From contig NZ_KE386569.1 in NCBI RefSeq assembly GCF_000427625.1, positions 3,810,389 through 3,856,312 of the forward strand: a stretch of 45,924 bases of DNA, in the 5' to 3' direction. The DNA is from Methylobacter luteus IMV-B-3098 (GTDB lineage Bacteria; Pseudomonadota; Gammaproteobacteria; Methylococcales; Methylomonadaceae). Positions 1,969-16,577 of this stretch are shown here, one piece after another (the first letter of the stretch is position 1; each line of letters opens with the position of its first letter). The notes beneath the pieces are model-generated. The model worked only from the letters and a program-made list of their open reading frames with translations, ran no database searches and was not told the origin of the DNA. Both the position numbers and the translations under genes were made by a program.

Positions 1969-1998
1969 TCAGTCGGAGCGATTTTTTAATTCCTTACA
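1969..1998 (-). promoter_or_regulatory. ECF-type promoter of bufABC
   Basis: Read on the minus strand: TGTAAGG (1998-1992), a 16-nt spacer, then CGACTGA (1975-1969). The same two boxes with the same spacing lie upstream of the ECF sigma operon (16548-16577), and a close variant precedes the HD-GYP gene (2054-2083). That makes it a probable -35/-10 pair of the local ECF sigma factor. The match is seen directly; sigma dependence is inferred. Confidence 0.7.
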
Positions 1999-2053
1999 AA
2001 TTTTTTTCGGTCTGCCGATATCCTTTGTCTCAGAAAAAATTTACCGATGGTGT

Positions 2054-2083
2054 TGTAAGGAAGCTTCGCCGGTTCACGACCCA
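2054..2083 (+). promoter_or_regulatory. ECF-type promoter of the HD-GYP gene
   Basis: TGTAAGG at 2054-2060, 16-nt spacer, CGACCCA at 2077-2083, which is 59 nt before the ATG at 2143. The -35 box is identical to those of bufA and the sigma operon. The -10 box differs at two positions (CGACCCA instead of CGACTGA), so it may be weaker. Confidence 0.6.
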
Positions 2084-2818
2084 GTACAAATAACCCTATC
2101 AGCCGCTGAATCGAAAGTGACCCAATCGAAGGAGAACAGCCTATGAAACCAGCCCATGACAAAGTCCATACTCAGGAGTTACTGCACACCCTCTACAGCA
2201 TGGCGTTTCTGGTCGAAGTCCGCGATCCTTATACCGGCGGCCATTTATGGCGGGTTTCGCAATTTTCCACGCGACTGGCTCTGGCTTGTGGATTGTCCAA
2301 ACGGCAAGCCGTGATCGCCGGGTTAGGTGGATTTTTGCATGACTTGGGCAAGGTCGGTGTGCCGGACAGCATTCTTAACAACACCGGCAAGCTCAGCGAC
2401 GCGGAATATGCAGTGATGAAAACCCATCCAGCCCTGGGCGCCCAGGTGTTACAAGGCCATCCTCTGGCGCCGTTAGCGATGGACGCGGTATTAGGTCACC
2501 ATGAACGCATTGATGGCCGGGGTTATCCAGCCGGTTTAACAGGCGGCAAAATCGCCGAAACCGCACGCATCGTCGGTATCGCCGATGCCTTCGACGCCAT
2601 GACCAGCACTCGGCCATACCGTAAGGGCATGCCCGTGGCGGTGGCAATTGAACAGATTACCGTCAATCTGGATGCGCAATTCGATCTCAACTTCGGCCAC
2701 TGCTTCATCGAATTAGCCAGGTCCGGTGAACTGGATGGCATCATTGGCCACAGTGATATCGGTATTCCGCTCCACGAATGCCCGATATGCGGCCCGGTTG
2801 TCGTCGTGCAAAGAAAGC

Positions 2819-2823
2819 ATAAA
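2819..2823. repeat. Target-site duplication ATAAA, left copy
   Basis: ATAAA directly precedes the left inverted repeat. The identical ATAAA follows the right inverted repeat at 15084-15088. Five bp is the standard duplication for Tn3-family transposition. Confidence 0.9.
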
Positions 2824-2861
2824 GGGGCAGCCGCAGAATTCAGAAAAAATAGTACGCTAAG
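2824..2861 (+). repeat. Tn3-family left inverted repeat (IRL)
   Basis: 38 bp starting GGGGCAGCCGCAGAATTC and ending AGTACGCTAAG. It differs from the right repeat at one position (CAG here, CGG there). It also encodes the aberrant C-terminus of the truncated HD-GYP protein. Confidence 0.93.
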
Positions 2862-3041
2862 CCTTTAGGGTAAGCATTTGAGAGCTGTAGTGACAATCAG
2901 TTCATGAGGCAAATAAGATCGTATCTTAGCGCCTAGTCTAAGACCCATTGCTGCGGAATGTGTACGATAGATCAATAATTAATTAGGCCATCGTAACTTA
3001 CCACGGATAATTTTCCGCTTGCCTAATTTGATTATCACGAT

Positions 3042-3065
3042 AAGATAGTAATTAATTACTATCTT
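3042..3065. promoter_or_regulatory. 24-bp perfect palindrome, probable TetR-family operator
   Basis: AAGATAGTAATT followed immediately by its reverse complement, ending 2 nt before the ATG of the tetR-type gene. A shorter related dyad (TAAGAT-cgt-ATCTTA) lies at 2914-2928. The position over the translation start fits autorepression of the regulator and the exporter operon behind it. Function is inferred from symmetry and place. Confidence 0.65.
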
Positions 3066-3067
3066 TT

Positions 3068-3688
3068 ATGAGAGCAACCGTGACTACTCCTGTAAAACAC
3101 CTTCCTGCCGATGAACGACGGGCCGTAACAGTCGAGGCGGTGGTTGAATTGGCGGGTTCGCACAACCCCAGCGAAATCACAACTGCGGCTATCGCTAAAC
3201 ATATGAACTTGACCCAGGGCGCGTTGTTTCGTCATTTTCCGACTAAGGATGCTATTTGGCAGGCAGTCATGGAGTGGGTGGCGGAACGCCTCCTGGCTCG
3301 GATTGATTGTGCCGCGCAAGGTGTTGAATCGCCTCTAGCCGCGATGCAGGCGATATTCATGAGCCACGTCGAGTTCGTGGCCGAGCACCCAGGGGTTCCC
3401 CGGATGATGTTTGGAGAATTGCAACGTGCCGAGCAGACCGCGCCCAAGCGCATAGTGCAAACCCTGATTCTGCGTTATGGAGAACGCCTGCACCGACTGA
3501 TCGAGGCGGGTAAGGCTTGCGGCGAGCTGTCCGCCGCACTCGATACCGAAGCTGCGGCCACCCTGTTCATCGGCACGATCCAAGGCTTGGTCATGCAATC
3601 GCTGCTGGCCGGCAATGTGGAGCGTATCCGCCACGATGCGCCACGCGTCTTTGCAATTTATCAGCGTGGCATTCGGAGTGCGCAATGA
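3068..3688 (+). CDS. TetR/AcrR-family transcriptional regulator
   Basis: A 206-aa TetR-type repressor. Residues 15-65 form the HTH: RRAVTVEAVVELAG, then ITTAAIAKHMNLTQGALFRHFPTKDAIWQAV, the classic recognition-helix signature. The rest is the helical ligand-binding domain, of normal length. The perfect palindrome at 3042-3065 overlaps its start region. No clear Shine-Dalgarno precedes the ATG, so translation may be weak or the mRNA leader very short. Its stop overlaps the hlyD-like ATG (ATGA, 3685-3688), so it is cotranscribed with the exporter it probably controls. The ligand is unknown. Confidence 0.85.
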   Translation: MRATVTTPVKHLPADERRAVTVEAVVELAGSHNPSEITTAAIAKHMNLTQGALFRHFPTKDAIWQAVMEWVAERLLARIDCAAQGVESPLAAMQAIFMSHVEFVAEHPGVPRMMFGELQRAEQTAPKRIVQTLILRYGERLHRLIEAGKACGELSAALDTEAAATLFIGTIQGLVMQSLLAGNVERIRHDAPRVFAIYQRGIRSAQ

Positions 3689-4836
3689 ATCGCATGCCTC
3701 TACAAAAACGAACCTTGGCGCTTCTGGCAGTTATTGTGCCGTTGCTTGTGCTTTTCGTCTACGTCGCCTTACGGTCCGGTCCGCTGGCACCGGTAACCGT
3801 GACGGTCGCGGAGGTAAAGTCAAAGTCAATTGCCCCAGCGCTATTCGGTATCGGCACGGTGGAGGCGCGCTATACCTACAAAATTGGTCCCACGGTTGCC
3901 GGTCGCGTGCAACGTCTGGAGGTGCATGTGGGCGATCGAGTGAAGGGCTGTCAAGTGTTAGGCGAGATGGATCCGGTCGATCTCGATGATCGCGTCCGCT
4001 CACAGGAATCGGCATTCAAGCGTGCCGAAGCGGCATTGCGCGAAGCGGAGGCACGGCAAGCGTATGCGAAGGCCCAATTGCATCGATATGAACAATTGTT
4101 TGCGGTACGCTCGACTAGCGAAGAAATAGTCGCCACCAAGCGACAGGAATTGCAGATTGCGGATGCTGTACTTACGGTTGCCCGTGAAGATGTCGCTCGT
4201 GCCCGGTCTGACCGGGAGGCGTTGGTTACGCAGGGGGATAACCTGCGTTTGATCGCGCCGGCTGACGGCTTGGTCAGTTCCCGCGATGTCGATCCCGGCA
4301 CAACTGTCGTTGCTGGACAAGTTGTGGTGGAAGTGATCGATTCCGAAAGTTTATGGCTGAACGTACGCTTCGACCAGATCAGTGCAGCAGGGCTTGCCGC
4401 TGGACTGCCGGCCCGCATTGTGTTGCGTTCGCGCAATGGCCATGTGCTGGCCGGCCGCTTACTGCGGGTGGAACCCAAGGCTGACGCCGTGACCGAAGAA
4501 ATGCTTGCCAAGGTGAGTTTCGATCTGCCCCCCGATCCATTGCCGCCGCTGGGTGAGCTGGCCGAAGTCACGGTCGACTTACCGGCGCTACCAGCCGCCC
4601 CGGTGATTCCCAATGCCGCCATCCATCGTGAGAATGGGCAAGTGGGAGTCTGGCAAGCTATGGACGGCGACCTGCACTTTACTCCCGTTAAACTAGGCGC
4701 TGCTGATCTTGATGGCCAAGTGCAAATTCGCGATGGACTCAAGGACGGCGACCGGGTAGTGGTTTACAGCGAAAAGGCGCTGACCACACGCAGCCGAATT
4801 CATGTAGTTGAACACATTCCCGGCGCAGCGCGATGA
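3685..4836 (+). CDS. HlyD/MacA-type periplasmic adaptor (membrane fusion protein)
   Basis: A 383-aa adaptor that would link the inner-membrane ABC permease to the outer-membrane factor. Residues 8-30 are an N-terminal membrane anchor (LALLAVIVPLLVLFVYVAL). A lipoyl half-motif (VAGRVQRLEVHVGDRVKGCQVLGEMDP) lies near 75-100, then a coiled-coil hairpin around 105-180, a second lipoyl half (LRLIAPADGLVSSRDVDPGTTV) and beta-barrel domains. I start at 3685 because the ATG overlaps the tetR stop and begins the membrane anchor. The open frame extends upstream to 3517, but that part lies inside tetR. Its stop overlaps the permease ATG by 4 nt. Confidence 0.87.
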   Translation: MNRMPLQKRTLALLAVIVPLLVLFVYVALRSGPLAPVTVTVAEVKSKSIAPALFGIGTVEARYTYKIGPTVAGRVQRLEVHVGDRVKGCQVLGEMDPVDLDDRVRSQESAFKRAEAALREAEARQAYAKAQLHRYEQLFAVRSTSEEIVATKRQELQIADAVLTVAREDVARARSDREALVTQGDNLRLIAPADGLVSSRDVDPGTTVVAGQVVVEVIDSESLWLNVRFDQISAAGLAAGLPARIVLRSRNGHVLAGRLLRVEPKADAVTEEMLAKVSFDLPPDPLPPLGELAEVTVDLPALPAAPVIPNAAIHRENGQVGVWQAMDGDLHFTPVKLGAADLDGQVQIRDGLKDGDRVVVYSEKALTTRSRIHVVEHIPGAAR

Positions 4837-6035
4837 TCAGTTTGGCGGGCCGCGATATTCTCCATTCTTGGGGTAAGTTCGTGTTCACCGGCGTCGGTCT
4901 GGGATTGTTGATCGGCGTGACGCTGAGTATGGCCGGCATCTATCGGGGCATGGTCGACGATGCACAGGTGATGCTGGACAACACAGGCGCGGATCTGTGG
5001 GTAGTGCAGCAGGACACTCAGGGGCCTTATGCCGAATCGTCCAGTCTGTACGACGATCTGTATCGCAGTCTGCTGAATATGCCGGGCGTGGAATACGCGG
5101 CCAATGTCACCTATCTGATTATGCAGGTAGGCCACGGCGAGCAGGATGTTAGCGCCATGGTAGTTGGCGTCACGGCCGGCAAGCCGGGTACGCCAGGACA
5201 GCCCCGGTATCTCGTCGCTGGGCGACATATCACCCGTAGTCACTATGAAGCCATTGCCGATATTTCCAGCGGATTTCAGCTCGGTGAGCGTATCCGAATC
5301 CGCCGCAATTTTTACACGGTCGTCGGATTGTCTAAACGCACGGTATCTTATAACGGTGACCCGATGGTCTTCATTCCACTCAAAGACGCACAAGAAGCGC
5401 AATTTCTGAAAGACAACGATGCTCTGGTTCAGCAGCGCCGCCGCAATGCCGAGAACCCGGACTTCAATCGTCCAGGCATTCCCGATCTACTCGCTGTGGT
5501 GAACGCATCGCAAAGCACCAACACCTATGTTAATGCGGTACTTGTTAAGCTCAAACCCGGCACACTCCCTGAGGATGCAGCCGAAACGATTCGCCGCTGG
5601 ACGCGCCTGCAGGTTTATACCCGTATCCAGATGGAATCGATTCTGGTAGACAAGGTAATTGCTAAATCGGCCAGACAGATCGCTTTATTTCTGGTGATTC
5701 TGAGCATCGTCAGCGCGGCCATTGTTGCTTTCATCATCTATACCTTGACCTTGGGAAAAATTCGGGAAATTGCAGTGCTTAAACTGATCGGCACCAGGAA
5801 CCGCACCATCGCCGGCATGATCATGCAGCAGTCTCTAGCGCTTGGCGTTATCGGTTTTGTGGTGGGGAAAATCACCGCTACCTTCTGGGTGCCGATCTTT
5901 CCTAAGTACGTATTATTAATGCCGCTAGACTCCGTCGCAGGTTTTTTCGCTGTGCTGGCAATCTGCGCATTGTCCAGCGTCGTCGCTATTCGTATGGCGC
6001 TCAAGGTCGATCCGGCCGAAGCCATAGGAGGCTAA
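4833..6035 (+). CDS. FtsX/MacB-like ABC transporter permease
   Basis: A 400-aa permease. A first membrane segment near residues 15-35 (FVFTGVGLGLLIGVTLSMAG) is followed by a large periplasmic domain (about 40-270). Three C-terminal membrane segments lie near 285-310, 330-350 and 365-385, and the protein ends ALKVDPAEAIGG, the usual FtsX-domain ending. The fold is typical of MacB/LolE-type permeases that drive substrates from the periplasm through an adaptor and TolC-like pore. The ATPase is a separate gene one nt after the stop. Substrate is unknown. Confidence 0.87.
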   Translation: MISLAGRDILHSWGKFVFTGVGLGLLIGVTLSMAGIYRGMVDDAQVMLDNTGADLWVVQQDTQGPYAESSSLYDDLYRSLLNMPGVEYAANVTYLIMQVGHGEQDVSAMVVGVTAGKPGTPGQPRYLVAGRHITRSHYEAIADISSGFQLGERIRIRRNFYTVVGLSKRTVSYNGDPMVFIPLKDAQEAQFLKDNDALVQQRRRNAENPDFNRPGIPDLLAVVNASQSTNTYVNAVLVKLKPGTLPEDAAETIRRWTRLQVYTRIQMESILVDKVIAKSARQIALFLVILSIVSAAIVAFIIYTLTLGKIREIAVLKLIGTRNRTIAGMIMQQSLALGVIGFVVGKITATFWVPIFPKYVLLMPLDSVAGFFAVLAICALSSVVAIRMALKVDPAEAIGG

Positions 6036-6036
6036 G

Positions 6037-6747
6037 GTGAGCGGCAAAGGTATTCACATTGAAGGCTTAAAGAAACGCTACGGCGAGGGCGATACCGCTG
6101 TCCATGCCTTGAGGGGCGTGGACATGCAGGTTGCCCCGGGTGAGGTGGTAGGGCTTATCGGGCCGTCCGGTTCCGGTAAGAGCACTCTGCTCAAGTGTCT
6201 GGGGGCGGTGATTGATCCGACTGCCGGTCGCATGGTTCTGGGTGATGAGGTGATCTTTGACAACGATTGGAAAGTACGTGACCTGCGAGCCTTGCGGCGT
6301 GACAAGATCGGCTTCGTATTCCAGGCGCCCTACCTGATTCCTTTTCTCGATGTGACCGACAACGTTGCACTGCTGCCGATGTTGGCAGGTATACCCAATA
6401 GTAAAGCGCGTGCGAAAGCACTGGAGCTTCTCACCGCGCTGGATGTACAACACCGCGCCCGTGCCATGCCGTCGCAGCTTTCCGGCGGCGAACAGCAGCG
6501 CGTTGCCATCGCCCGCGGGCTGGTCAATCGCCCGCCTGTGATTCTTGCCGACGAGCCAACCGCACCGCTCGACAGTGAACGGGCCATGGCCGTTATCCGT
6601 ATCCTCAACGACATGGCACGCCAGTTCGAGACCGCCATCATCGTTGTCACCCACGATGAAAAAATTATTCCCACCTTCAAACGCATCTACCATATCCGCG
6701 ACGGCGTGGCCCATGAGGAAGTCGGCGAAGGACGAGGATTTGAGTAA
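6037..6747 (+). CDS. ABC transporter ATP-binding protein (LolD/MacB type)
   Basis: A 236-aa nucleotide-binding subunit, GTG start one nt after the permease stop. Walker A GPSGSGKST is near residue 44, the Q-loop VFQAPYL near 93, the signature LSGGEQQRVAIARGL near 148, Walker B VILADEP near 170 and the H-loop VVTHD near 206. The usual DEPTGALD reads DEPTAPLD here, an uncommon change in the D-loop approach. It should dimerise and power the FtsX-like permease. Confidence 0.9.
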   Translation: MSGKGIHIEGLKKRYGEGDTAVHALRGVDMQVAPGEVVGLIGPSGSGKSTLLKCLGAVIDPTAGRMVLGDEVIFDNDWKVRDLRALRRDKIGFVFQAPYLIPFLDVTDNVALLPMLAGIPNSKARAKALELLTALDVQHRARAMPSQLSGGEQQRVAIARGLVNRPPVILADEPTAPLDSERAMAVIRILNDMARQFETAIIVVTHDEKIIPTFKRIYHIRDGVAHEEVGEGRGFE

Positions 6748-6769
6748 ACAATTAAATTCAAGGTGCCTG

Positions 6770-7234
6770 ATGACATACCAAAACTGCCCTAAAAATCTTT
6801 TTACTGCCATTGCAGCCAGCGTATTTATAGCCGGCATCTACTCGCATGCTTGGGCTGATGGGGATACCGAAGCTAAGCCGTTAGAACTGCGCCGAATCAT
6901 GCAAGAACTCGGTAGGAATATGCAGACCATCACTGACGCCATTTCTCGTGAAGATTGGGCTTCGGTCGCCAAAGTTGCACCACAGATCGCCGAGCATCCG
7001 GAGCCGCCTGTTATCGAGAAGATGCGTATCCTGACGTTCATTGGCGCCGATATGGGGACGTTCGAAAGTCATGATGAAATAACGCATCAAGCTGCGCGGG
7101 CACTGGAACAAGTTGCCGCCCGGAACGATGGACAAGGCGTGATCACAGCCTTTGCGAATCTGCAAAGCAGTTGTCTGGCTTGCCATCAGAGTTTCCGTCA
7201 ATCGTTCGTGGAACATTTTTATGGGCAACGTTGA
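6770..7234 (+). CDS. Secreted class II (c'/c-556-like) cytochrome c
   Basis: A 154-aa protein with a signal peptide (cleavage near HAWA-DGD, residue 30), a helical body with an RRIMQELGRNMQ segment, and one haem-binding CLACH motif near the C-terminus, the arrangement of class II cytochromes c. I chose the ATG at 6770 because it begins the signal peptide and AAGGTG lies 4 nt upstream. The longer frame from 6545 overlaps the ATPase gene. It sits between the ABC ATPase and the outer-membrane factor, with no other redox gene nearby. Its role in an export operon is unclear. Confidence 0.8.
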   Translation: MTYQNCPKNLFTAIAASVFIAGIYSHAWADGDTEAKPLELRRIMQELGRNMQTITDAISREDWASVAKVAPQIAEHPEPPVIEKMRILTFIGADMGTFESHDEITHQAARALEQVAARNDGQGVITAFANLQSSCLACHQSFRQSFVEHFYGQR

Positions 7235-7277
7235 AGGAATACGCCGTCACGGTACTGATCGCTCGAAGACCGATCAC

Positions 7278-8717
7278 ATGACGGTTCGGACCTATACAGT
7301 CATCATTTTTGCCGGCTTGCTGTCTAGTTGTACCGTAGGGCCCGATTTCAAAGCACCGGCCGCCCCCGATACTCCAGCCTACACCGCAACCCCTTTGTCG
7401 ACTCAAACGGCATCCGCGGCCACGGCTTTGGGAGATGCGCAACACTTTAGGATCGGCGCCAACGTGAACGCACAGTGGTGGCGTGATCTGGGATCTTCCA
7501 AACTCGACGCGCTGATAGAGCAGGCTTTTCAGGCCAGTCCAACGCTGGCTTCCGCACGAGCCACGTTACGTCAGGCGCAGGAAATCCATGCGGCGCAGGA
7601 GGGGGCGATGATGTATCCTCAAGTCGATGCCGGTTTCAGCGCGCAACGACAACGCTTTAATCCCATCGTATTGGGACAAGATGACAACGCGCGGGAATTC
7701 AGTTTGTTTAACGCCGGTGTTAACGTCAATTACCAACTCGATCTTGCCGGTGGTAACCGCCGCGCCTTAGAGGCCTTAGCCGCTCAAACCGAGTATCGCC
7801 GTCACGAATTGGAAGGTGCGCAGCTAACCTTGGCGGGCAATATCGTTACCGCCGCGATTACCCAAGCCAGGCTTGCGGCACAAATACAATCTACGGAGGC
7901 TATTCTAAGCGCTCAAGATGAACAATTGCACCTTACCCAAGAACGCGTGCGTCTTGGCCAGGGCGCACCGGATGAAGTGTTGGCGCTGCAAACCCAAGTG
8001 GAAGATACTCGCGCCGGTCTTCCCGTGTTGCGTAAACAGAGTCAGCAGAATGAACATCTGTTGGCCGCACTCACCGGCCGTGCCCCGGAAGATGGGCAAT
8101 TGCCCACTTTCATGCTGGAAGAATTCACCCTACCGTCCGATTTACCCTTAATCGTACCTTCCGAATTGGTGCGCCGCCGCCCCGACATCCTCGGCGCGGA
8201 AGCGTTGTTACACGCTGCCAACGCGGAATACGGCAGCGCAATCGCCAAGCTGTATCCGCAACTTAATCTTAGCGCCGATCTCGCTACGCAGACCTTGGTT
8301 GCAGGCGCATTGTTCGGCCCCGGTTCAGCAATATGGAACGTCCTTGGACAACTTACCCAGCCGCTCTTTAATCCCGCACTGCCCGCCGAAAAGCGCGCGG
8401 CATTGGCCGCGTTCGATGCCGCGGCCGCCAATTACCAAAGCGTCGTGCTCGAATCCCTGCGCAATGTAGCCGATGTTCTGCGCGCTTTGGAGAACGATGC
8501 TGAGGCATTGGCGGCTCTGACTGCCGCAGATGCTGCGGCGCAAGGCTCTTTGCAATCCGTGCAGAGGCAATATGCACTGGGTACGGTCAGCTACGTTCAG
8601 CAGCTGATCGCACAACAAGCGGCGCAACAGACCAGAATTAACTTGATCGCGGCTCAGGCACAGCGCCTCGTCGATAGTGCGGTTCTGTACCAAGCTATGG
8701 GCGGCGGTGCCAGTTAA
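7278..8717 (+). CDS. NodT/TolC-like outer-membrane factor lipoprotein
   Basis: A 479-aa outer-membrane efflux protein. The signal sequence has a lipobox (GLLSSC, Cys near residue 18), then VGPDFKAP, the standard start of NodT-family factors. Two OEP repeats follow, with the family landmark VRRRPDILGAEALLHAANAEYG... and FNPALPAEKRA in the second. It should form the trimeric outer-membrane channel for the HlyD/FtsX/ATPase exporter. I start at ATG 7278 since it gives a proper lipoprotein signal; 7221 is possible but adds a charged leader. It is the last gene before the nested transposon. Confidence 0.88.
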   Translation: MTVRTYTVIIFAGLLSSCTVGPDFKAPAAPDTPAYTATPLSTQTASAATALGDAQHFRIGANVNAQWWRDLGSSKLDALIEQAFQASPTLASARATLRQAQEIHAAQEGAMMYPQVDAGFSAQRQRFNPIVLGQDDNAREFSLFNAGVNVNYQLDLAGGNRRALEALAAQTEYRRHELEGAQLTLAGNIVTAAITQARLAAQIQSTEAILSAQDEQLHLTQERVRLGQGAPDEVLALQTQVEDTRAGLPVLRKQSQQNEHLLAALTGRAPEDGQLPTFMLEEFTLPSDLPLIVPSELVRRRPDILGAEALLHAANAEYGSAIAKLYPQLNLSADLATQTLVAGALFGPGSAIWNVLGQLTQPLFNPALPAEKRAALAAFDAAAANYQSVVLESLRNVADVLRALENDAEALAALTAADAAAQGSLQSVQRQYALGTVSYVQQLIAQQAAQQTRINLIAAQAQRLVDSAVLYQAMGGGAS

Positions 8718-8741
8718 GGCTATACCCTAACCTGATGTCAG

Positions 8742-8886
8742 TGTCATTTTTCAAAGTCGATGTCAGCGGCCATCAACCTGAACCCGCGTAATCTCTTGAT
8801 AAACGCAAATTAAAATGTCATAGTCGATGTCAGCAACGTTCAAACCCGATGTCAGCACGTCGCAAATTGTCAAAGTCGACGTCAGC
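8742..8886 (+). repeat. Left-end array of four transposase-binding repeats
   Basis: Copies of a TGTCAAAGTCGATGTCAGC-like unit occur at 8742-8767 (terminal, with extra Ts), 8816-8834, 8841-8856 (partial) and 8868-8886. Arrays of 19-bp sites at the ends are typical of TnsB/TniA-type transposases. tniA begins 21 nt after the last copy, so binding may also repress its transcription. Confidence 0.8.
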
Positions 8887-10551: not shown

Positions 10552-11447
10552 CGTTCAAGCATTTGGGGCCGGAAGCGAACGAGCTCGCCAAGCTACCTAG
10601 CGTAGAGCGTCTTGCTCATCTGAGAATGGAGCGCTGGATCGGCTATACCCGAGCCCATCAAGTGTTGGCACAGCTCGAAGCGTTGCTTGCCAGTGAGCCT
10701 GGCAAGCTGCGCCCGCGAAATCTTCTGATTGTAGGCCCCAGCAACAACGGCAAAACGATGATTGCCGAAAAGTTCCGCCGCACGCATCCGCAGCGGATTT
10801 CCGAGAATGGTGAACACGAGGTCATTCCAGTACTTACGGTACAAATGCCCGCCGAGGCAACGGTTAACCGATTCTTTACCGCACTGCAGGTTGCACTTGG
10901 AACCCCGGTCGGCTTTTACGGGCGTCATGACCTACGCGAAGTGTCGACGTTGCGGCTAATGCGCACGGTCGGCGTGCGCATGCTGATCATTGATGAGGTA
11001 CACAATTTATTGGGCGCAACGGCCAGACGGCAACGAGAACTGTTAAACCTGCTGCGTTTTATGGGCAATGAGCTGCGTATCCCCGTCGTTTGCCTGGGCA
11101 TCCGTGATGCTTATCTGGCGATTCGCAGCGATGACCAGCTAGAGAATCGGTTTCATCCCCTGCTGCTGCCGCTCTGGGAATCGGGCGAGGAATTCGCGCG
11201 TCTGCTGGCCAGTTTCGAGACCGTGCTGCCGCTGCGCGAACCTTCTCATCTGTCCAGTGCGCCGTTATACGAGCTGATCTGGCGCCGATCTGAAGGTACG
11301 ATTGGCGAAATCGCGGCACTCCTGATCAGCGCCACCACAGCCGCCTTACTGCAAGGTGAAGAGCGTATTACCTGCGCCGTCATTGAACGTGCCGATTATC
11401 AACCGCCTAGTGTGCGCCGGCGCATGGTTGAGCAGGAATTGCGTTGA
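10545..11447 (+). CDS. tniB: TniB-like AAA+ ATPase transposition regulator
   Basis: A 300-aa TnsC/TniB-type ATPase that selects targets and activates TniA. Walker A GPSNNGKTMI is near residue 64, Walker B MLIIDEVHNLL near 145, and a sensor segment VVCLGIRDAYLAIRSDDQL follows. The N-terminal RMERWIGYTRAHQVLAQLE is typical of the family. Length is normal. It overlaps tniA at the start and is followed at once by tniQ. Confidence 0.9.
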   Translation: MVTFKHLGPEANELAKLPSVERLAHLRMERWIGYTRAHQVLAQLEALLASEPGKLRPRNLLIVGPSNNGKTMIAEKFRRTHPQRISENGEHEVIPVLTVQMPAEATVNRFFTALQVALGTPVGFYGRHDLREVSTLRLMRTVGVRMLIIDEVHNLLGATARRQRELLNLLRFMGNELRIPVVCLGIRDAYLAIRSDDQLENRFHPLLLPLWESGEEFARLLASFETVLPLREPSHLSSAPLYELIWRRSEGTIGEIAALLISATTAALLQGEERITCAVIERADYQPPSVRRRMVEQELR

Positions 11448-11457
11448 CTGGCGCAGC

Positions 11458-11817
11458 ATGCAGAAGCGCTGGCCGCTGCATCCGAAACCCTATCGCTACG
11501 AGATATTGGAATGCTATGTGCGCCGGCTCGCTGAATGTTATGGTGTGCGTTACGAATATTTCTGCCTACGTGCTCTGGGCATTCCTACCGGCGATAGTCT
11601 GGCAAGGCAATTTGAGCAGCCTGCACCGGAGTTATTACAGCGGCTGTCTAATGGCACCGGCATTCCCGTTGAGCAGCTTGAGCAGATGACGCGGCCGCTC
11701 GTTTGGCGGCGGATCATGGAGGAAATGAATCAGTATGCCGCAACGCCAGAAGGCCAGGCCGAGCTGGATGCTTTGACACAGCGTGTCGCAAAATTCCTAA
11801 ATTCTGCGACAACCTGA
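11458..11817 (+). CDS. tniQ: Short TniQ-family target-site factor
   Basis: A 119-aa protein with the TniQ N-terminal pattern (RWPLHPKPYRYEILECYVRRLAE...). Full TniQ of Tn5053 is roughly 400 aa, so only the first domain is present, as in the smaller TniQ/TnsD-like proteins. I start at ATG 11458, 10 nt after the tniB stop. The upstream extension to 11356 lies inside tniB. Its 3' end carries part of the res-like repeats. It probably bridges TniB and the target DNA. Confidence 0.75.
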   Translation: MQKRWPLHPKPYRYEILECYVRRLAECYGVRYEYFCLRALGIPTGDSLARQFEQPAPELLQRLSNGTGIPVEQLEQMTRPLVWRRIMEEMNQYAATPEGQAELDALTQRVAKFLNSATT

Positions 11818-11896
11818 TGGCTCTGATAGAATCAGGGCTTCATGTGTCGCAAAAGTAGGGTGCAAAAGTCTATAATTACGAGACACTTTTGCAACA
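11784..11896. other. Candidate res site for TniR
   Basis: Three dyad-like subsites lie between the tniQ end and tniR. TGTCGCA...TGCGACA spans 11784-11811, TGTCGCAAAAGT begins at 11845, and AGACACTTTTGCAACA is at 11881-11896. The order tniQ-res-tniR is that of Tn5053/Tn402. The site is assigned by repeats and position. Confidence 0.6.
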
Positions 11897-11915
11897 GTAT
11901 TTTTGAGCTCTGACT

Positions 11916-12488
11916 ATGCTGATAGGTTATGCCCGCGTCTCGACCGACGACCAACATCTTGACAACCAGCGCACTGCCCTACAGGCCGCCGGTTGCCAGC
12001 GCCTCTATGAAGAAAAAATTTCCGGGGCTAAGCGTGAACGCCCGGAATTGATACGGCTACTCGATCACTTGCGTAAAGGCGATGTGCTGGTGGTGACGCG
12101 TCTGGACCGACTGGCCCGTGCCACAAAGGACCTGCTGGAGCTGGCGGAGCTTCTCAACCGGGCGGGCGCTGGCTTGCGATCCCTGGGTGAACCGTGGGCA
12201 GACACGACCTCGCCGTCTGGCAAGATGGTGCTGACTGTTTTTGCGGGCATCGCCGAGTTTGAACGCTCTCTGATTGCTGAGCGAACCCACGCCGGCCGTC
12301 TTGCTGCCCAGAAAAAAGGCATACGCTTCGGCCGTCCACCGAAACTTAGCACCGAGCAGATTGCGCTCGGGCATCGATTGTGTACCGAAGGTACGTCCGT
12401 GCGCGATGCCGCCCGCATCCTGAATTGTCATCACGCGACTTTATACCGCGCAATCGGTAGATTCGTGCCACCCTCCGACGGAGATTGA
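11916..12488 (+). CDS. tniR: TniR-like serine resolvase
   Basis: A 190-aa small serine recombinase that resolves cointegrates at res. The catalytic Ser is in GYARVSTDDQ (residue 9), with TRLDRLARATKDLLE near 64, TSPSGKMVLTVFAGIAEFERSLIAERT near 100-125, and a C-terminal HTH (SVRDAARILNCHHATLYRAIGR). Length and domains are complete. It reads away from the res-like site at 11784-11896. It is the only intact recombinase in the Tn3/Tn402 block and may now serve both elements. Confidence 0.9.
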   Translation: MLIGYARVSTDDQHLDNQRTALQAAGCQRLYEEKISGAKRERPELIRLLDHLRKGDVLVVTRLDRLARATKDLLELAELLNRAGAGLRSLGEPWADTTSPSGKMVLTVFAGIAEFERSLIAERTHAGRLAAQKKGIRFGRPPKLSTEQIALGHRLCTEGTSVRDAARILNCHHATLYRAIGRFVPPSDGD

Positions 12489-12507
12489 TCACCGCTCCAA
12501 CTCCTAA

Positions 12508-12532
12508 CTGACATCGGCTTTAAAAAGCGACA
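12508..12532 (-). repeat. Internal copy of the transposon right end
   Basis: CTGACATCGGCTTTAAAAAGCGACA closely resembles the terminal right repeat at 14040-14065 (CTGACATCGACTTTGAAAAATGACA), with a few substitutions. It lies just after tniR, where a core tniABQR element would be expected to end. Confidence 0.6.
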
Positions 12533-12597
12533 GTCAGAAAGAGAATGGTTAATGGATTCCAGAAAACGGACATATTCTGGACTTGTCATTTATCGAA

Positions 12598-12630
12598 GTC
12601 TTTGTCGGTAGCAACTTGACCGACAAAGAC
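12598..12630. terminator. Stem-loop downstream of the cargo genes
   Basis: A perfect 12-bp stem (GTCTTTGTCGGT / ACCGACAAAGAC) with a 9-nt loop lies between tniR and the stop of the cargo kinase gene. It has no clean T-tract on either strand. It could end cargo transcription or stabilise the mRNA 3' end. Confidence 0.4.
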
Positions 12631-12646
12631 CGAGCCTAATCTGCCA

Positions 12647-13162
12647 TTAGTCACGCGGAAAGCAGACGTTGGTTGTGAATGGCTCCCTAATGTCGAATCC
12701 CTCTTCTTGGCGAGGCGCCACAAAATGACCTGTGATGATTTCAAAATCTTTATCGCAGACGGAAAACGCATGAGTGCCGGCGGCATTTCGTGTACGTAAG
12801 CGAGTCATACAATCGGCGTCAGTGGTCTCCAGAAGATGCAACAAATGTTCGGACGGAACACCATCAAGAAGACTTTTCATCCATTTTCGGGTTGCGACCG
12901 TGTTGGCAGGGATATCCAGGACAACTGACACTCCCGCCCGAAGCAACGCGGTCACATGTGGGCCAATCACATTTCGCAAATTGGCGGCGCAACGAACATA
13001 GTCCTCTATCGTATTTATTTCACCTGGAAAAAGGTGTGCGAGCCAATCATCTTCGCCAATGATCACTGTGTTTGGCTGGGCGGCGATCTCTTTGGCAAGT
13101 GTTGATTTTCCAGAGGCTATTTTTCCGCATAGCAGGTGTAGCGTAGTTAGTGTCTTTTGCAT
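12647..13162 (-). CDS. P-loop kinase-like AAA family ATPase (transposon cargo)
   Basis: A 171-aa protein with Walker A GKIASGKSTL at residues 13-22, a VIIGEDDWLAHLFPG segment near 34, VSVVLDIPANT (Walker B-like) near 88 and basic lid residues after 120. It resembles small zeta-toxin or chloramphenicol-phosphotransferase-like kinases (AAA_33 type). The substrate is unknown. It begins one nt after the stop of the SnoaL-like gene on the same strand, so the two are cotranscribed cargo. It has no relation to transposition. Confidence 0.75.
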   Translation of the reverse strand: MQKTLTTLHLLCGKIASGKSTLAKEIAAQPNTVIIGEDDWLAHLFPGEINTIEDYVRCAANLRNVIGPHVTALLRAGVSVVLDIPANTVATRKWMKSLLDGVPSEHLLHLLETTDADCMTRLRTRNAAGTHAFSVCDKDFEIITGHFVAPRQEEGFDIREPFTTNVCFPRD

Positions 13163-13163
13163 G

Positions 13164-13562
13164 TCACGCCACTCCTAACAGGTCCGTTCCATAAGAATTG
13201 TCGACAACGCAAAGCCATTTACCGTCCAACTCTTCGCGGAATACGTAGGTAGCGCGACGAGTCGTTCTCGCCTGAACACCCTTTGAGTCAACCGTCTCCA
13301 AGATGGTCTCCATGATGACCAGCGCCGTATTAGCACCCTGAATGACCTGAATTTCGCCTTGCTTGACAACAAGATTGTGACCGAAATAGTCGGCAATGGC
13401 GACAAATGCCTTGCGGATATTTTCCTTGCCTTTCGCGATTAAGCCAGGCTTGATGACAAGTGCTGCGTCGTCCGCGTAGAACTCCATCAAGGCGTCGAAG
13501 TCCTCGCTGGTAATCGCTTCGTCAGCAGCCTTGATTGCCTTTATTATCTGTTGGTATTCCAT
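13164..13562 (-). CDS. SnoaL/DUF4440-like NTF2-fold protein (transposon cargo)
   Basis: A 132-aa cone-shaped NTF2-fold protein: IIKAIKAADEAITSEDFDALMEFYADDAALVIKPG at the start, then IQVIQGANTALVIMETIL and RRATYVFREELDGKWLCVVDNSYG. Such proteins bind small ligands or act as simple isomerases or hydrolases; the activity here is unknown. CAAGGAG lies 6-7 nt before the ATG. A promoter, leader-like ORF and terminator hairpin lie upstream at 13601-13746. Confidence 0.8.
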   Translation of the reverse strand: MEYQQIIKAIKAADEAITSEDFDALMEFYADDAALVIKPGLIAKGKENIRKAFVAIADYFGHNLVVKQGEIQVIQGANTALVIMETILETVDSKGVQARTTRRATYVFREELDGKWLCVVDNSYGTDLLGVA

Positions 13563-13600
13563 GTCAATCTCCTTGGTTGAGTAAGTGCCTGGAGACGGAC

Positions 13601-13626
13601 ATAAAAAACCCGCCTCTTGGCGGGTT
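13601..13626 (-). terminator. Intrinsic terminator in the cargo operon leader (attenuator candidate)
   Basis: On the minus strand AACCCGCC-AAGA-GGCGGGTT is followed by TTTTAT. It is a strong Rho-independent terminator, but it lies about 39 nt upstream of the SnoaL-like start and downstream of the promoter at 13718-13746. Confidence 0.75.
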
Positions 13627-13648
13627 GCAGTGAATAATCAAAAGCGCG

Positions 13649-13711
13649 CTAACCCACCATTTTTAAAATGGTGGAAATAATGGTCAAATTGGATTGGGCG
13701 GCGGCTTTCAT
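13649..13711 (-). CDS. 20-codon leader-like ORF upstream of the attenuator
   Basis: ATG at 13711 to TAG at 13649-13651 encodes a 20-aa peptide beginning MKAAAQSN. Its last codons lie in a 10-bp inverted repeat (CCACCATTTT / AAAATGGTGG, 13654-13674). The terminator at 13601-13626 begins 23 nt after its stop. No Shine-Dalgarno is visible, and the predicted transcription start falls at or next to the ATG, so translation would be leaderless. Supported only by layout. Confidence 0.35.
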   Translation of the reverse strand: MKAAAQSNLTIISTILKMVG

Positions 13712-13717
13712 ACATTC

Positions 13718-13746
13718 AATTTACCAAATGCCTAGATACCGGTCAA
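13718..13746 (-). promoter_or_regulatory. Sigma70-type promoter of the cargo operon
   Basis: On the minus strand TTGACC (13746-13741), a 17-nt spacer and TAAATT (13723-13718). The -35 matches consensus at 5 of 6 bases and the -10 at 4 of 6, with ideal spacing. Confidence 0.55.
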
Positions 13747-13810
13747 TTCTGCGGCTCGGCACGGACGAGTGACAGGCTATCGTATCGAGGCTGTAGCCGT
13801 TCGCCATCCC

Positions 13811-13914
13811 TAAGGAACCGCTGATTTATTCGAAACTGGCGGTTGCGCGTCCGGCGAAATCAAAGCCTTACACATGCCGCGTAATGCAAGTGTCTATTTA
13901 TTCAGCGTTTTCCT
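13811..13914. repeat. Imperfect inverted repeat pair, possible MITE or IS remnant
   Basis: TAAGGAACCGCTGATTTATT at 13811-13830 and, inverted, TAGGAAAACGCTGAATAAATA at about 13894-13914 enclose about 60 bp without an ORF. The arms match at roughly 14 of 20 positions if gaps are allowed. A TA or TAA lies outside both arms. Identity as a mobile element is weak. Confidence 0.3.
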
Positions 13915-14016
13915 AATTGGAGTCGTCCGCTTTCAGGAAACTAGTTGGCAGCGCTTTTATCCATGATAACTAATTACCCAATGGTTGGGCGGCCTATTCC
14001 ACGCTCTTGACTCTCT

Positions 14017-14065
14017 GCTGACATCGACTTTGACAATCCGCTGACATCGACTTTGAAAAATGACA
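14017..14065 (-). repeat. Right-end transposase-binding repeats
   Basis: Two copies of GCTGACATCGACTTTG: 14017-14035 and the terminal 14040-14065, which ends AAAAATGACA. They are inverted relative to the left-end array. Fewer sites at one end is common in Tn7/Tn5053-type elements. Confidence 0.85.
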
Positions 14066-14066
14066 C

Positions 14067-15050
14067 CAGTTCAATCATGCGTTTGCCGAAAACTGGGGCG
14101 ACGGCTCGACCTCGTCTTCCGACGGCCAGCGTTTTCGGGCGGGCGGCAAGGCCGAGAGCTCGGGTCATGTCAATCCGAAGTATGGCAGCGAACCGGGCCG
14201 ATTGTTCTATACCCACATTTCCGACCAGTACGCCCCCTTTCACACCAAGGTCGTGAACGTAGGCGTGCGCGATTCGACCTATGTGCTCGATGGTTTGCTG
14301 TATCACGAATCGGATTTGCGTATCGAAGAGCATTACACCGATACAGCCGGCTTTACCGACCATGTCTTCGCACTGATGCATTTGCTGGGATTTCGCTTTG
14401 CGCCCCGCATTCGCGATTTGAAGGATACCAAGCTATATGCGCCTAAAAACGGCCAAGACTACTCGGCATTACAGAGCATGATCGGAGGTAACTTGAATAT
14501 CAAAAGCATCCAAACGCATTGGGACGAGATATTACGGCTTGCGGCGTCGATCAAACAAGGCACCGTTACCGCATCGCTGATGCTGCGGAAACTCGGCAGT
14601 TACCCACGGCAGAACGGCCTGGCTGTGGCCTTGCGCGAACTGGGCCGCATCGAACGCACCTTGTTCATTCTGGATTGGTTGCAAAACGTAGAACTGCGTC
14701 GTCGTGTCCACGCGGGGCTGAATAAGGGCGAGGCCCGCAACGCTTTGGCCAGAGCGGTGTTTTTTAATCGCTTGGGCGAAATCCGCGACCGCAGCTTCGA
14801 GCAACAGCGCTATCGTGCCAGCGGCCTCAATTTAGTGACGGCCGCCATCGTGTTATGGAACACCGTCTATCTGGAAAGGGCCGTCGAAAAACTACGGGAA
14901 TTGGACAAGCCTGTTGACGATGCGCTACTGCAATACTTGTCGCCGTTAGGTTGGGAGCACATCAATCTGACGGGCGATTACATTTGGCGCCAGAACCGGA
15001 AGATTGAAGAAGGGCAATTCAGACCGTTGCGAACCACTGAAAAGTCTTAG
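14067..15050 (+). pseudogene. tnpA: Tn3-family transposase TnpA, C-terminal fragment
   Basis: An open frame runs from the end of the nested transposon to a TAG inside the right inverted repeat. The 327 codons match about the last third of a Tn3-type TnpA (near 1000 aa): [51 protein letters not shown], and [16 protein letters not shown]. These hold the three acidic catalytic positions. The N-terminal DNA-binding two thirds is absent, so the protein should not transpose alone. Confidence 0.9.
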
Positions 15051-15083
15051 CGTACTATTTTTTCCGAATTCTGCGGCTGCCCC
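15046..15083 (-). repeat. Tn3-family right inverted repeat (IRR)
   Basis: 38 bp, inverted copy of 2824-2861 with one mismatch. The tnpA stop codon (15048-15050) lies within it, as is normal for Tn3-family elements. Confidence 0.93.
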
Positions 15084-15088
15084 ATAAA
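15084..15088. repeat. Target-site duplication ATAAA, right copy
   Basis: Second copy of the 5-bp ATAAA seen at 2819-2823. Confidence 0.9.
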
Positions 15089-15316
15089 GCGGGAGACAGG
15101 GTATTTTGCCGGGTGTGCGGCAATGGCTATACCCTGGAAAAACAACAGGGCAAACTGGCCCTGAAACCCATCGGGAAACGAGGCACGGCGCAGGATTTGC
15201 AAGCCCTGATCGATCATGATTTGCTGGCCCGCTTGCTGGAAGAATCGCTGCCGTATCTGCCGGTCGGCGAAGGTAGCGGCAAGAGCTGGCTGCAGCGTTT
15301 AAGAGACTGGCTCTGA
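15089..15316 (+). pseudogene. HD-GYP protein, 3' fragment with second half of a zinc ribbon
   Basis: Joined to codon 227 of the 5' fragment, the frame continues AGDRVFCRVCGNGYTLEK... for 75 residues to a TGA at 15314-15316. That gives an original protein of about 302 aa. CRVC here and CPIC at 213-216 of the 5' part form a four-Cys zinc ribbon that the transposon split. The tail is helical (DLQALIDHDLLARLLEESLPYL) and ends SWLQRLRDWL. An in-frame GTG at 15113 could start a 67-aa fragment but lacks a good ribosome site. Confidence 0.88.
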
Positions 15317-15329
15317 ATCGGGTACGGCA

Positions 15330-15554
15330 TTATTTGCAGCAGCCGTCCTGTCCGTCACTCAGTTGAACCGGCGGACAGGCAACGCTGCCATAGGAGCAGA
15401 ATACGCAGCAATCGCCTGGCTTCGGTTTCAGCAAGGCATGGCAGCCCTGGCATTCATAAAACCACTGGCAGGCATCGCGGGGCATCGTCTCGGTTTTGCG
15501 ATAACCGCATACCGGACAGGTTAGCGTGGACTGCCATATGATCTGCTTTGTCAT
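15330..15554 (-). CDS. GDCCVxC-motif small Cys-rich protein
   Basis: A 74-aa protein with 12 Cys: CPVCGYRKTE, CQWFYECQGCHALLKPKPGDCCVFCSYGS, CPP and a CC near the end. It belongs to the conserved GDCCVxC family (some homologues are selenoproteins), whose function is unknown; the Cys pattern suggests metal binding. I start at ATG 15554 because it overlaps the stop of the anti-sigma gene (ATGA). The upstream extension is out of keeping with the family. It is the third gene of the ECF operon and converges on the HD-GYP 3' end. Confidence 0.82.
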   Translation of the reverse strand: MTKQIIWQSTLTCPVCGYRKTETMPRDACQWFYECQGCHALLKPKPGDCCVFCSYGSVACPPVQLSDGQDGCCK

Positions 15555-15760
15555 TTGCTTAAAGGTTTTTTGCCCGAGCGGCTTTGCAAGTGTTCGGGAT
15601 AGCGCCGGGCGACCTTGCGGATCAACTGGGTTTGACTCTGGAAGTTTCGGCAGGGTGAACACATCATGATGTGCAAAGTGATCGCTAGGCGCTCCTCTAA
15701 GCTGAGTTTTCTGTCCAAGCCCTGAGACATCAGAGCAGTAATTTCGCGGCAACTACGCAT
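15551..15760 (-). CDS. Zinc-finger (zf-HC2) anti-sigma factor
   Basis: A 69-aa cytosolic anti-sigma domain protein. MRSCREITALMSQGLDRKLS is followed by LAITLHIMMCSPCRNF, the C...H-x3-C-x2-C zinc-binding pattern of ZAS/zf-HC2 anti-sigma factors. No membrane segment is present. It overlaps the sigma gene 3' end by 8 nt and the GDCCVxC gene by 4 nt. It probably holds the ECF sigma factor until metal or redox stress alters the zinc site; that trigger is inferred. Confidence 0.82.
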   Translation of the reverse strand: MRSCREITALMSQGLDRKLSLEERLAITLHIMMCSPCRNFQSQTQLIRKVARRYPEHLQSRSGKKPLSK

Positions 15761-16376
15761 GACGCTTCTCCTTCTTTCGTTTCGATTGATTGAACCAGCG
15801 GATTTCCAGACATTCGCGCAGCCGCAGCCGGGCGCGATGCATGATGACCCAGTAATTGGCCTCGCTGAGGCCGGTTTCGCGGCAGACCTCGTCGGCTTCC
15901 AGGCCGACCAGTTCCCGCAGCATGAAGACTTGGGCCATTTTCGGCGGCAGGTTGTTCTGACACGTTTCGTAGATGCGCCAGAATTCCTGTTGCTTGAGGG
16001 CCGCTTCCGGATCATTCCAGGCACTCGAGCCGCCGTTCCATTGGCCGTCGCTCATGAAAAAATCGGCTTCGTCAGTATCGCTCTCGTCGGCATCGCTAAA
16101 GCCGATGTCCGAGACGACTATTTCCCGGCCGCTACGCCGCCAGTGATCAGCGATCTTGTGTTTCAGGATGCCGATCAGCCAGGTCCGTAAGCCGGCTTTG
16201 CCCTCAAATGCCGAGGCTGATTGCCAGGCGGCCAATAAGGCTTCTTGCACGGCATCGTCGGCCAGTTCGTCATCGCGCAGTTGCAGCAAGGCATAGCGGA
16301 ACAGCACCGGCCGATGCTCGGCCAACAGGGCTTCGGTCAACTGCCTGGTGGCTTTAGTCCCGGCTTTCAACAACAT
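15753..16376 (-). CDS. ECF-type RNA polymerase sigma factor
   Basis: A 207-aa sigma-70 family factor with only regions 2 and 4. Region 2 reads LLQLRDDELADDAVQEALLAAWQSASAFEGKAGLRTWLIGILKHKIADHWRR in pieces from about 30 to 80. An acidic linker follows, then region 4 with LPPKMAQVFMLRELVGLEADEVCRETGLSEANYWVIMHRAR from about 142. Its own ATG lacks a clear ribosome site and lies inside the end of a small upstream ORF (16367-16513), which suggests translational coupling. The motif upstream of the operon also precedes bufA and the HD-GYP gene, so these are its likely targets along with itself. Confidence 0.88.
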   Translation of the reverse strand: MLLKAGTKATRQLTEALLAEHRPVLFRYALLQLRDDELADDAVQEALLAAWQSASAFEGKAGLRTWLIGILKHKIADHWRRSGREIVVSDIGFSDADESDTDEADFFMSDGQWNGGSSAWNDPEAALKQQEFWRIYETCQNNLPPKMAQVFMLRELVGLEADEVCRETGLSEANYWVIMHRARLRLRECLEIRWFNQSKRKKEKRHA

Positions 16377-16513
16377 GAGCCGGCCGCCCTGGCAGTACTG
16401 GCATGGAGTCCTGATATGCCATCGAACAAACTCGTGGAACCTGTGCCATTAGCGCTGGCGCAGCCTGCATAAGCCAGAGCGTAAACGCGGGTGAATAAGA
16501 AGCTTGTGCACAT
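16367..16513 (-). CDS. Small ORF (48 aa) leading the ECF sigma operon
   Basis: ATG at 16513 is preceded by AAGGAGAG with a 5-nt spacer, the best ribosome site in the operon, about 35 nt after the ECF-type -10 box. It encodes a 48-aa peptide beginning MCTSFLFTRVYALAYAGC and ending in two Cys (four Cys total). Its stop overlaps the sigma start by 10 nt. It may be a true Cys-containing peptide or a coupling leader. No family recognised. Confidence 0.5.
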   Translation of the reverse strand: MCTSFLFTRVYALAYAGCASANGTGSTSLFDGISGLHASTARAAGSCC

Positions 16514-16547
16514 GGGATCTCTCCTTGAGTCATACGACGATATACCT

Positions 16548-16577
16548 TCAGTCGCAGGACAATCACGAAACCTTACA
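16548..16577 (-). promoter_or_regulatory. ECF-type promoter of the sigma operon (autoregulation)
   Basis: On the minus strand TGTAAGG (16577-16571), 16-nt spacer, CGACTGA (16554-16548). Both boxes and the spacing are identical to those upstream of bufA (1969-1998). The spacer sequences are unrelated. Confidence 0.7.

Follow-up and report, generated by a model that had tools for sequence, protein, structure and literature searches.

A 45,924-nucleotide stretch of the genome of Methylobacter luteus IMV-B-3098 (contig NZ_KE386569.1), referred to here in its whole length as the window, contains three gene units which very probably stand under the common control of one locally encoded sigma factor of the extracytoplasmic function (ECF) type, with the factor also controlling its own operon. 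The units are a peptide operon of the hvfABC type, a gene for a zinc-ribbon HD-GYP phosphodiesterase and the sigma operon itself, and each is preceded by the same promoter motif. A preliminary description of the stretch had proposed one ECF regulon tied together by a shared promoter, a proposal supported by the conservation of that promoter among relatives. What is apparently new is that a zinc-ribbon HD-GYP is repeatedly tied to systems of this kind, through the promoter in one sigma clade and through the operon in a second.

The shared promoter in the window and in the genome

Two copies of TGTAAGG-N16-CGACTGA are found on the minus strand, one ahead of the precursor gene hvfA (1969-1998) and one ahead of the sigma operon (16548-16577), and TGTAAGG-N16-CGACCCA is found on the plus strand ahead of the HD-GYP gene (2054-2083). 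All three ECF-type sites had been described previously and were recovered with zero mismatches. A scan of the window with up to one mismatch permitted returned these three matches only, all perfect, against a shuffle mean of 0.13 and 0/100 shuffles reaching three; the distances from site ends to gene starts are 59, 60 and 171 bp. When the search is extended to the 5.03 Mb genome, as had been suggested, TGTAAGG-N16-CGAC occurs exactly three times, each time in the window, with a single match for the reversed control. Base composition predicts approximately 2.4 such matches, so that the count of three is by itself unremarkable. The clustering, on the other hand, is far from chance, with three sites inside 15 kb, each located just upstream of a gene.

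Looser forms of the motif were also considered. Widening the spacer to N15-N17 added one genome site, located within an open reading frame (ORF), with six matches for the reversed control, and TGTAAG-N16/17-CGACTNA gave six matches against none for the control and about 1.2 expected, two of the six preceding no recognisable regulon gene. A large regulon defined by loose matching was rejected, with 25 two-mismatch matches (the three known sites included) compared to 117 for the reversed control; seven of the ten additional loose sites inspected (nine with two mismatches, one from the N15-N17 set) lay within ORFs. The regulon is probably wider than the three units, to judge from near-matching sites at an ArsM gene, which persists at C1:281411 with TGTAAGA-N15-CGACTCA upstream, and at the cluster of a second sigma factor discussed below.

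Conservation of the promoter among relatives

A scan of named genomes with the sigma protein yielded 28 loci (L004-L031), mainly from Methylomonas, Methylobacter and Methylovulum, with L031 being a distant match from an actinobacterium. In this set, the distance between TGTAAGG and CGAC is N15 in 18 cases and N16 in 31, any other spacing between 5 and 39 occurring at most five times. The exact N16 site is present upstream of the sigma operon in 23/26 assessable loci, a count that leaves out L012, whose contig offers only 221 bases ahead of the gene. Of the 16 named loci with a precursor gene, 15 have an N15 or N16 site in front of it, own-genome and G-handle copies not being included in this figure.

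At the family scale, TGTAAGG-N15/16-CGACTNA was detected at 141 sites in 69/179 genomes, compared to 53 sites for the reversed control. The search of relatives that had been proposed earlier gave a clear association with the sigma factor: each of the 35 genomes that encode a close sigma ortholog (at least 64% identity) has the motif (77 sites, 15 for the reversed control), as do 34/144 of the remaining genomes (Fisher 2.9e-18, kinship ignored), with a control motif found in 12/35 and 30/144, respectively (p = 0.12). Among the genes downstream of 94 motif sites, those which recur are precursors, PiT-ArsM-sigma or ArsM-sigma operons, HD-GYP, VTT/pyridine-nucleotide oxidoreductase genes and DUF547 proteins, alongside others that are unrelated or without assignment; many of the loci had been picked by means of the motif and do not constitute a test of it. 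On the evidence of this conservation, TGTAAGG-N15/16-CGAC is a conserved predicted ECF promoter in the Methylococcaceae.

The bases which open the spacer are constant within each promoter class, being AAT in 14/15 precursor sites, AA in 8/8 HD-GYP sites and TTT in 19/23 sigma-operon sites. Simple duplication of one promoter was rejected because each class retains its own spacer start between species, in agreement with the earlier argument from the unrelated spacers of the window.

Sigma clades and recognition specificity

The sigma gene of the window (15753..16376, minus) encodes a Pfam-recognised protein with ECF regions 2 and 4, assigned to the TIGR02943 family (NCBIfam 217.4 bits, cut-off 162.2). 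A tree of 45 sigma rows separates a window clade of 34, a second clade of seven (L152-L156, L159, L160) and a third group of four which includes a second sigma factor from the same genome; the tree has several long branches and ten open forks, and does not settle where the second clade falls among the window-clade rows. The region-4 helix carries YWV in the 34 window-clade rows, CRV in 7/7 rows of the second clade and FWV or LWV in the third group. The precursor promoters of the second clade have the form TGTAACA-N15-CGACTGA in 5/5 loci with the gene. This covariation between the -35 box and the helix, although correlational, supports the reading of these promoters by these sigma factors, and the pairing of YWV with GG and of CRV with CA constitutes a directly testable specificity switch.

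A site of related form, TGTAACG-N16-CGACTGA, was observed elsewhere in the M. luteus genome at C1:1483251 (L064, L161), where it is followed by a leader resembling those of second-clade precursors (CAGGAAGGCA...ATTCAAACTAC) with no precursor gene seen; it looks like the relic of a lost second peptide operon.

The HD-GYP gene and its interruption by a transposon

In the window, the HD-GYP gene is cut in two by a Tn3-family element (2824..15083) bounded by 38-bp inverted repeats, identical at 37/38 positions, and a 5-bp target-site duplication, ATAAA. The first part (2143..2823, plus; Pfam HD_5) comprises the N-terminal 227 codons, with the full catalytic domain and the first half of a zinc ribbon, and its frame continues for 14 codons into the transposon up to a stop at 2868. 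The insertion after codon 227 thus spares the catalytic domain, and leaves the second CxxC of the ribbon, together with the C-terminus, on the far side (15084..15316, plus), a fragment delimited by comparison with intact relatives. Normal functioning of the protein in this strain is unlikely. The preliminary description was right in considering the element real and in predicting that the units would adjoin one another in its absence, as relatives without the transposon have the three units side by side; the insertion lies inside the HD-GYP gene, however, and not between units. The window locus would represent a regulon in the course of being dismantled by mobile elements and deletions.

Within the element, the Tn3 transposase gene is truncated (positions 130-389 of the 389 of the DDE_Tnp_Tn3 profile) and a Tni-like module (TniB/rve/resolvase) occupies 8908-12488. 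ORFs resembling TetR, membrane fusion protein, ATP-binding cassette and outer membrane factor genes of an efflux system were observed at 3068-8717, having been named by eye with no family search.

The signature HD...HHExxDGxGYP and its metal ligands are present in the HD-GYP protein according to the alignment and Pfam HD_5. All aligned proteins reaching the C-terminus have HD(L/I)GK, HHExxD and a four-Cys zinc ribbon. The catalytic domain matches the solved structures 4mcw, 5z7c and 4r8z (E = 3e-35, 5e-32 and 8e-22), which we take to be PmGH, V-cGAP3 and PA4781, whereas the C-terminal zinc ribbon, CPxCG...CxxCG, and the tail lie outside the matched stretches, none of which extends past residue 189. 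The substrate may be cyclic di-GMP (c-di-GMP) or cGAMP, since the nearest structures include both enzyme types, 5z7c being designated a 3'3'-cGAMP enzyme and one other a c-di-GMP enzyme. AlphaFold prediction of the intact HD-GYP, with four sequences as input, gave a mean predicted local distance difference test score (pLDDT) of 38.

Protein searches identified HD-GYP orthologs in 15/179 family genomes at E 1e-70. Eight form a close clade, with at least 73% identity to the L009 query (the L009 genome and the window included), and TGTAAGG-N16-CGAC is found upstream in 8/8 of these, orthologs chosen by protein. In the window, L009, L011, L017, L019 and L026, the divergent -35 boxes of the HD-GYP and precursor genes start 55-57 bp apart. 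In LW13 (L117) and G175 (L116), a 433-aa gene with its own site separates the two genes, and the HD-GYP promoter is retained. The environmental strains Methylomonas sp. LW13 and M. koyamae R-45383 both have an uncut HD-GYP in the neighbourhood of their sigma and precursor genes. A small GTPase-like gene, read from sequence, was observed in the HD-GYP position of L006 (5958-6751, minus), behind TGTAAGG-N16-CGACACA.

The seven distant orthologs (57-62% identical) have the motif within about 200 bp upstream in 0/7 cases and are associated with the same systems by gene order. L153 and L156 share the order hvfA-hvfB-hvfC-HDGYP-hvfX, L155 has HDGYP-hvfX-sigma-anti-sigma, with a looser version in L154, and L152 has PiT, HDGYP and hvfX near sigma and hvfAB. 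An ArsM-like gene and an oxidoreductase gene are found near the distant-clade HD-GYP in L157, a close-sigma genome, and none of the sought genes near that of L158. Among genomes with a sigma factor of the second-clade type, 5/10 have a distant HD-GYP.

Observations that bear on a single regulon

A number of observations weigh against a single sigma regulon with the HD-GYP gene as its member. Regarding the promoter, the exact sigma-operon motif is absent in L015, L016 (one mismatch) and L030, the precursor gene of M. marinus A45 is the sole one of the 16 with no motif, and the motif exceeds its control also in genomes lacking a close ortholog (64 sites compared to 38). In M. marinus A45 (L005, upstream of 6928), the -35 box and the region preceding it have been replaced by different DNA and the -10 box and leader retained; the replacing DNA was seen to resemble the end of an insertion element.

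Regarding the sigma factor, the second TIGR02943 member of the genome, located at C1:3926002 and thus some 70 kb past the window, lies above the family cut-off, has a helix, FWV, similar to YWV, and belongs to a cluster preceded by TGTAAGC-N15-CGACTAA, so that the local and second factors may share targets. This cluster (C1:3921643-3926535, L151) was observed to comprise VTT/oxidoreductase, PiT, DUF547, sigma and zf-HC2 genes. It is conceivable that the second sigma, or both factors, mainly read the promoters, the local sigma being one of two overlapping regulators, an alternative to which the kin of the second sigma in L125 and L135, adjoining TGTAAGG-N15-CGACT sites, also lend weight. We consider it unlikely, as every exact N16 site of the genome stands beside the local sigma and Methylomonas L009, L011, L017 and L019 have all three promoters around the orthologous sigma.

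Regarding the HD-GYP gene, the close-clade form occurs in only 8/35 genomes with a close sigma, the window copy is cut, and three other genomes of the genus gave no HD-GYP at E 1e-70, with only remnants being found: L004 and L040 retain short pieces, L130 a C-terminal one, and L131 likewise a C-terminal one, together with a leftover TGTAAGG noted by eye. Short or interrupted pieces are also seen in L122, L119 and L026, and the -10 box is the most variable of the three promoter classes (CGACTTA, CGACAAA, CGACCAT, CGACCCA). A search of 370 genomes of the class gave nine hits, seven outside the family, of which 0/7 had an MNIO gene in the stretches fetched around them (3 to 16.5 kb, several ending at contig ends); within these stretches, the pairing of HD-GYP with MNIO was not seen to extend past the family. 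A VTT/oxidoreductase gene is located near the outside-family homologue of L174. Near that of L171, a Cys-rich, secreted-looking protein with NPC repeats was observed (9757-10449, minus), the stretch having no MNIO gene.

Taken together, the -10 box CGACCCA, the patchy occurrence, the broken or lost gene in the genus and the lack of a link outside the family could mean that the motif ahead of HD-GYP arose by chance or as a by-product beside the divergent precursor promoter, the gene being no meaningful regulon member. Such a coincidence would be very improbable: the site is kept in all eight close orthologs, including LW13 and G175 with their intervening gene, its chance expectation is below 1e-4 per upstream region, and gene order links the distant HD-GYP clade with hvf or sigma genes. 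The assignment of the HD-GYP gene to the regulon, as put forward in the preliminary description, is supported by its promoter in the close orthologs and qualified by the state of the gene in Methylobacter, a genus which appears to be losing it, so that in the window organism it appears as a decaying regulon member.

The peptide operon

The first gene behind the precursor promoter (1591..1908, minus) encodes a 105-aa precursor peptide with EGKCG repeats of the HvfA/oxazolin type. It is recognised by the KCGExKCG_twice model (20.4 bits, cut-off 19.5), scores 21.2 bits, under the cut-off of 95, with the HvfA equivalog, and had no match in a Pfam search. It is followed by an hvfB/bufB-type MNIO maturase gene (702..1574, minus; Pfam MbnB_TglH_ChrH), whose product exceeds the NCBIfam cut-off for HvfB (411.8 bits, 360) and remains under that for BufB (258.4, 310). 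The hvfC/bufC-type gene (145..705, minus; Pfam DUF2063; NCBIfam HvfC 189.5 bits, cut-off 142) is truncated at its C-terminal end to 186 aa, the DNA homology to the 259-aa relative of L004 stopping at window position 181, about residue 175, with other DNA beyond. The hvfX gene (HvfX/DoxX), present in relatives, gave no match in the M. luteus genome at E 1e-5 with the L004 protein of the same genus as query, in a search run without a positive control. By these family assignments, the operon is of the HvfABC (EGKCG) type, with a weak precursor match, and not a DUF2282 bufferin operon, for which both a Pfam-recognised precursor and a BufB-level maturase are lacking. The earlier designation as a bufferin-type operon is consequently abandoned.

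The sigma operon and its fossil leader

The gene after sigma (15551..15760, minus) encodes a small zinc anti-sigma factor of 69 aa of the zf-HC2/ZAS type (Pfam zf-HC2; NCBIfam antisigmaE 76.9 bits, cut-off 50), with residues Cys4, His30, Cys34 and Cys37 arranged as C-x25-H-x3-C-x2-C. A GDCCVxC domain protein follows (15330..15554, minus; NCBIfam NF041374 108.3 bits, cut-off 40). In L009, the GDCCVxC gene was observed to have an in-frame TGA (5913-5915) at the position of a Cys in the window protein, a candidate selenocysteine codon. The -35 box upstream of this operon is of the GTAAGG type, as in an autoregulatory promoter at the level of sequence.

Between promoter and sigma gene lies a 48-aa leader ORF (16367..16513, minus), whose stop overlaps the sigma start and which is described as the remnant of a PiT gene start joined to the end of an ArsM-like gene. 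Its start aligns to that of the L009 PiT gene with a score of 70, compared to a shuffle maximum of 37. In DNA alignment, its 3' half did not exceed shuffled sequences against the L009 ArsM end (score 33, maximum 42 in 200 shuffles), and its ArsM origin is suggested by the longer M. marinus leader, which still has the ArsM C-terminus, and by the shared overlap with the sigma start. From these alignments, the window sigma operon is considered to have lost its PiT and ArsM-like genes, the leader ORF being their fossil. In 4/4 genus genomes (window, L004, L131, L005), the leader remains open with its stop overlapping the sigma start, which suggests that leader-sigma translational coupling is under selection.

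An AraC-type regulator gene (Cupin_6 and HTH_18; 16627-17526, minus) was observed directly upstream of the sigma operon, and a counterpart (71-73% identical) occupies the position just ahead of the sigma gene or operon in L152, L153 and L156 of the second clade.

Proposed mechanism and meaning

The three promoters can be explained as those of a single ECF sigma regulon which controls itself and which represents a Methylococcaceae adaptation of the sigmaE/MseR kind. By analogy with MseR, HrsE and RsrA, the 69-aa zinc anti-sigma would keep the sigma in the cytoplasm, and oxidation of its thiols, or displacement of its zinc by Cu(I) or another thiophilic metal, would lead to release. The freed sigma would then read TGTAAGG-N15/16-CGAC(TNA) at its own operon, at hvfABC and, where kept, at the HD-GYP gene. 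The hvfABC genes would give rise to a thiooxazole copper-binding peptide, and the zinc-ribbon HD-GYP phosphodiesterase would lower c-di-GMP (or cGAMP) during stress; for relatives with an uncut gene, we regard a lowering of c-di-GMP under stress as an even prospect. The ancestral sigma operon would also have carried a PiT transporter and an ArsM-like methyltransferase, and in the window strain the HD-GYP arm is cut.

The nature of the inducing stress allows for another explanation, in which oxidants or thiol stress, and not copper, are the main signals for the sigma, the metal peptide being one of several envelope-repair outputs. In its favour are the ZAS residues of the window anti-sigma and the response of Haemophilus RpoE2/HrsE to HOCl (PMC7907618). 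We consider it somewhat less likely than not, given that the Gig promoters of Legionella and Cupriavidus respond to copper and gold (for Cupriavidus, PMC10304878), that metals induce the sigmaF regulon of Caulobacter whereas agents producing reactive oxygen species do not (PMC3511200), and that meningococcal sigmaE was unresponsive to the oxidants tried (PMC2893595).

In a bolder version, the zinc-ribbon HD-GYP would be a dedicated, patchily kept component of hvf-type copper-peptide systems in the Methylococcaceae, with two sigma clades of switched -35 specificity (TGTAAGG/YWV and TGTAACA/CRV) each including members with an HD-GYP in the regulon or operon; through the zinc ribbon, phosphodiesterase activity would follow the metal or redox state, and stress by metal would directly lower c-di-GMP and free cells from the biofilm. 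We hold this to be doubtful, and it is weakened because the HD-GYP is kept in so few close-sigma genomes. If true, cyclic-dinucleotide turnover and a metallophore of the ribosomally synthesised and post-translationally modified peptide (RiPP) class would be placed under one sigma, and metal or oxidant stress and the sessile/motile decision on one switch. Copper sensing and buffering in methanotrophs are of wide interest because these organisms need copper for methane oxidation.

Comparison with known systems

The MNIO family is presumably represented in two of the systems compared here, by the COG3220/UPF0276 gene of the Haemophilus operon and by a member within the gigPABT operon of Cupriavidus. 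Control of an operon like this one by a sigma factor paired with a small zinc anti-sigma is on record in Haemophilus influenzae (PMC7907618), with close kin in Neisseria (PMC2893595). The link between the peptide and c-di-GMP turnover appears new, as the preliminary description had supposed, no report of it having been found in searches of the openly accessible literature. In Neisseria meningitidis, the autoregulated operon NMB2140-2145 (-35 GTAAGGTT, -10 CGTCTAA) encodes an ECF sigma followed by the small zinc anti-sigma MseR, with Cys4, His30, Cys34 and Cys37 at the same positions as in the window protein (PMC2893595). It differs in its boxes, GTMAGBWTT and CGTCTAAH, with a spacer of 12-13 nt, and in the targets shown, which are its own operon and msrA/msrB, with no HD-GYP, PiT or ArsM among them in the text available (PMC2893595). 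In H. influenzae, RpoE2 and the 67-aa cytoplasmic anti-sigma HrsE control a doxX operon with COG3220/UPF0276 and DUF2063 genes; the regulon is distinct in including msrAB, dmt and mtsZ, with no cyclic-dinucleotide enzyme described in the accessible text (PMC7907618).

More distant similarities are also found. The small ECF regulon of Caulobacter sigmaF/NrsF has GTAACC-N16-CGAA before sigF and two paralogous DUF2282-DUF692-DUF2063 operons, and differs in its NrsF anti-sigma (DUF1109, six membrane spans), its DUF2282 precursors and the lack of HD-GYP among the printed targets (PMC3511200). In Cupriavidus, the copper-induced gigPABT operon is divergent from the ECF sigma gene rpoQ and the putative anti-sigma gene rsqA, the latter predicted to encode a membrane protein, with RpoQ dependence being only putative (PMC10304878). 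A survey of MNIO clusters described sigma and NrsF genes in Buf1 and none in Buf2 clusters (PMC12452194). The closest peptide relatives are the HvfABC/oxazolin-fontiphorin captophorins, sharing the EGKCG precursor, the HvfB maturase and the HvfC partner, with frequent DoxX and regulator neighbours (PMC13097082); unlike at the methanotroph loci, HD-GYP is absent from the available captophorin text (PMC13097082). No report linking HD-GYP to these RiPPs, to their ECF sigma or to copper was found in the openly accessible literature, including PMC12452194 and PMC13097082. By its sequence features, the core of sigma, anti-sigma and peptide is already known in kind, from neisserial sigmaE/MseR and Haemophilus RpoE2/HrsE, and it is the addition of the HD-GYP, PiT, ArsM and GDCCVxC set that sets the methanotroph system apart within that kind.

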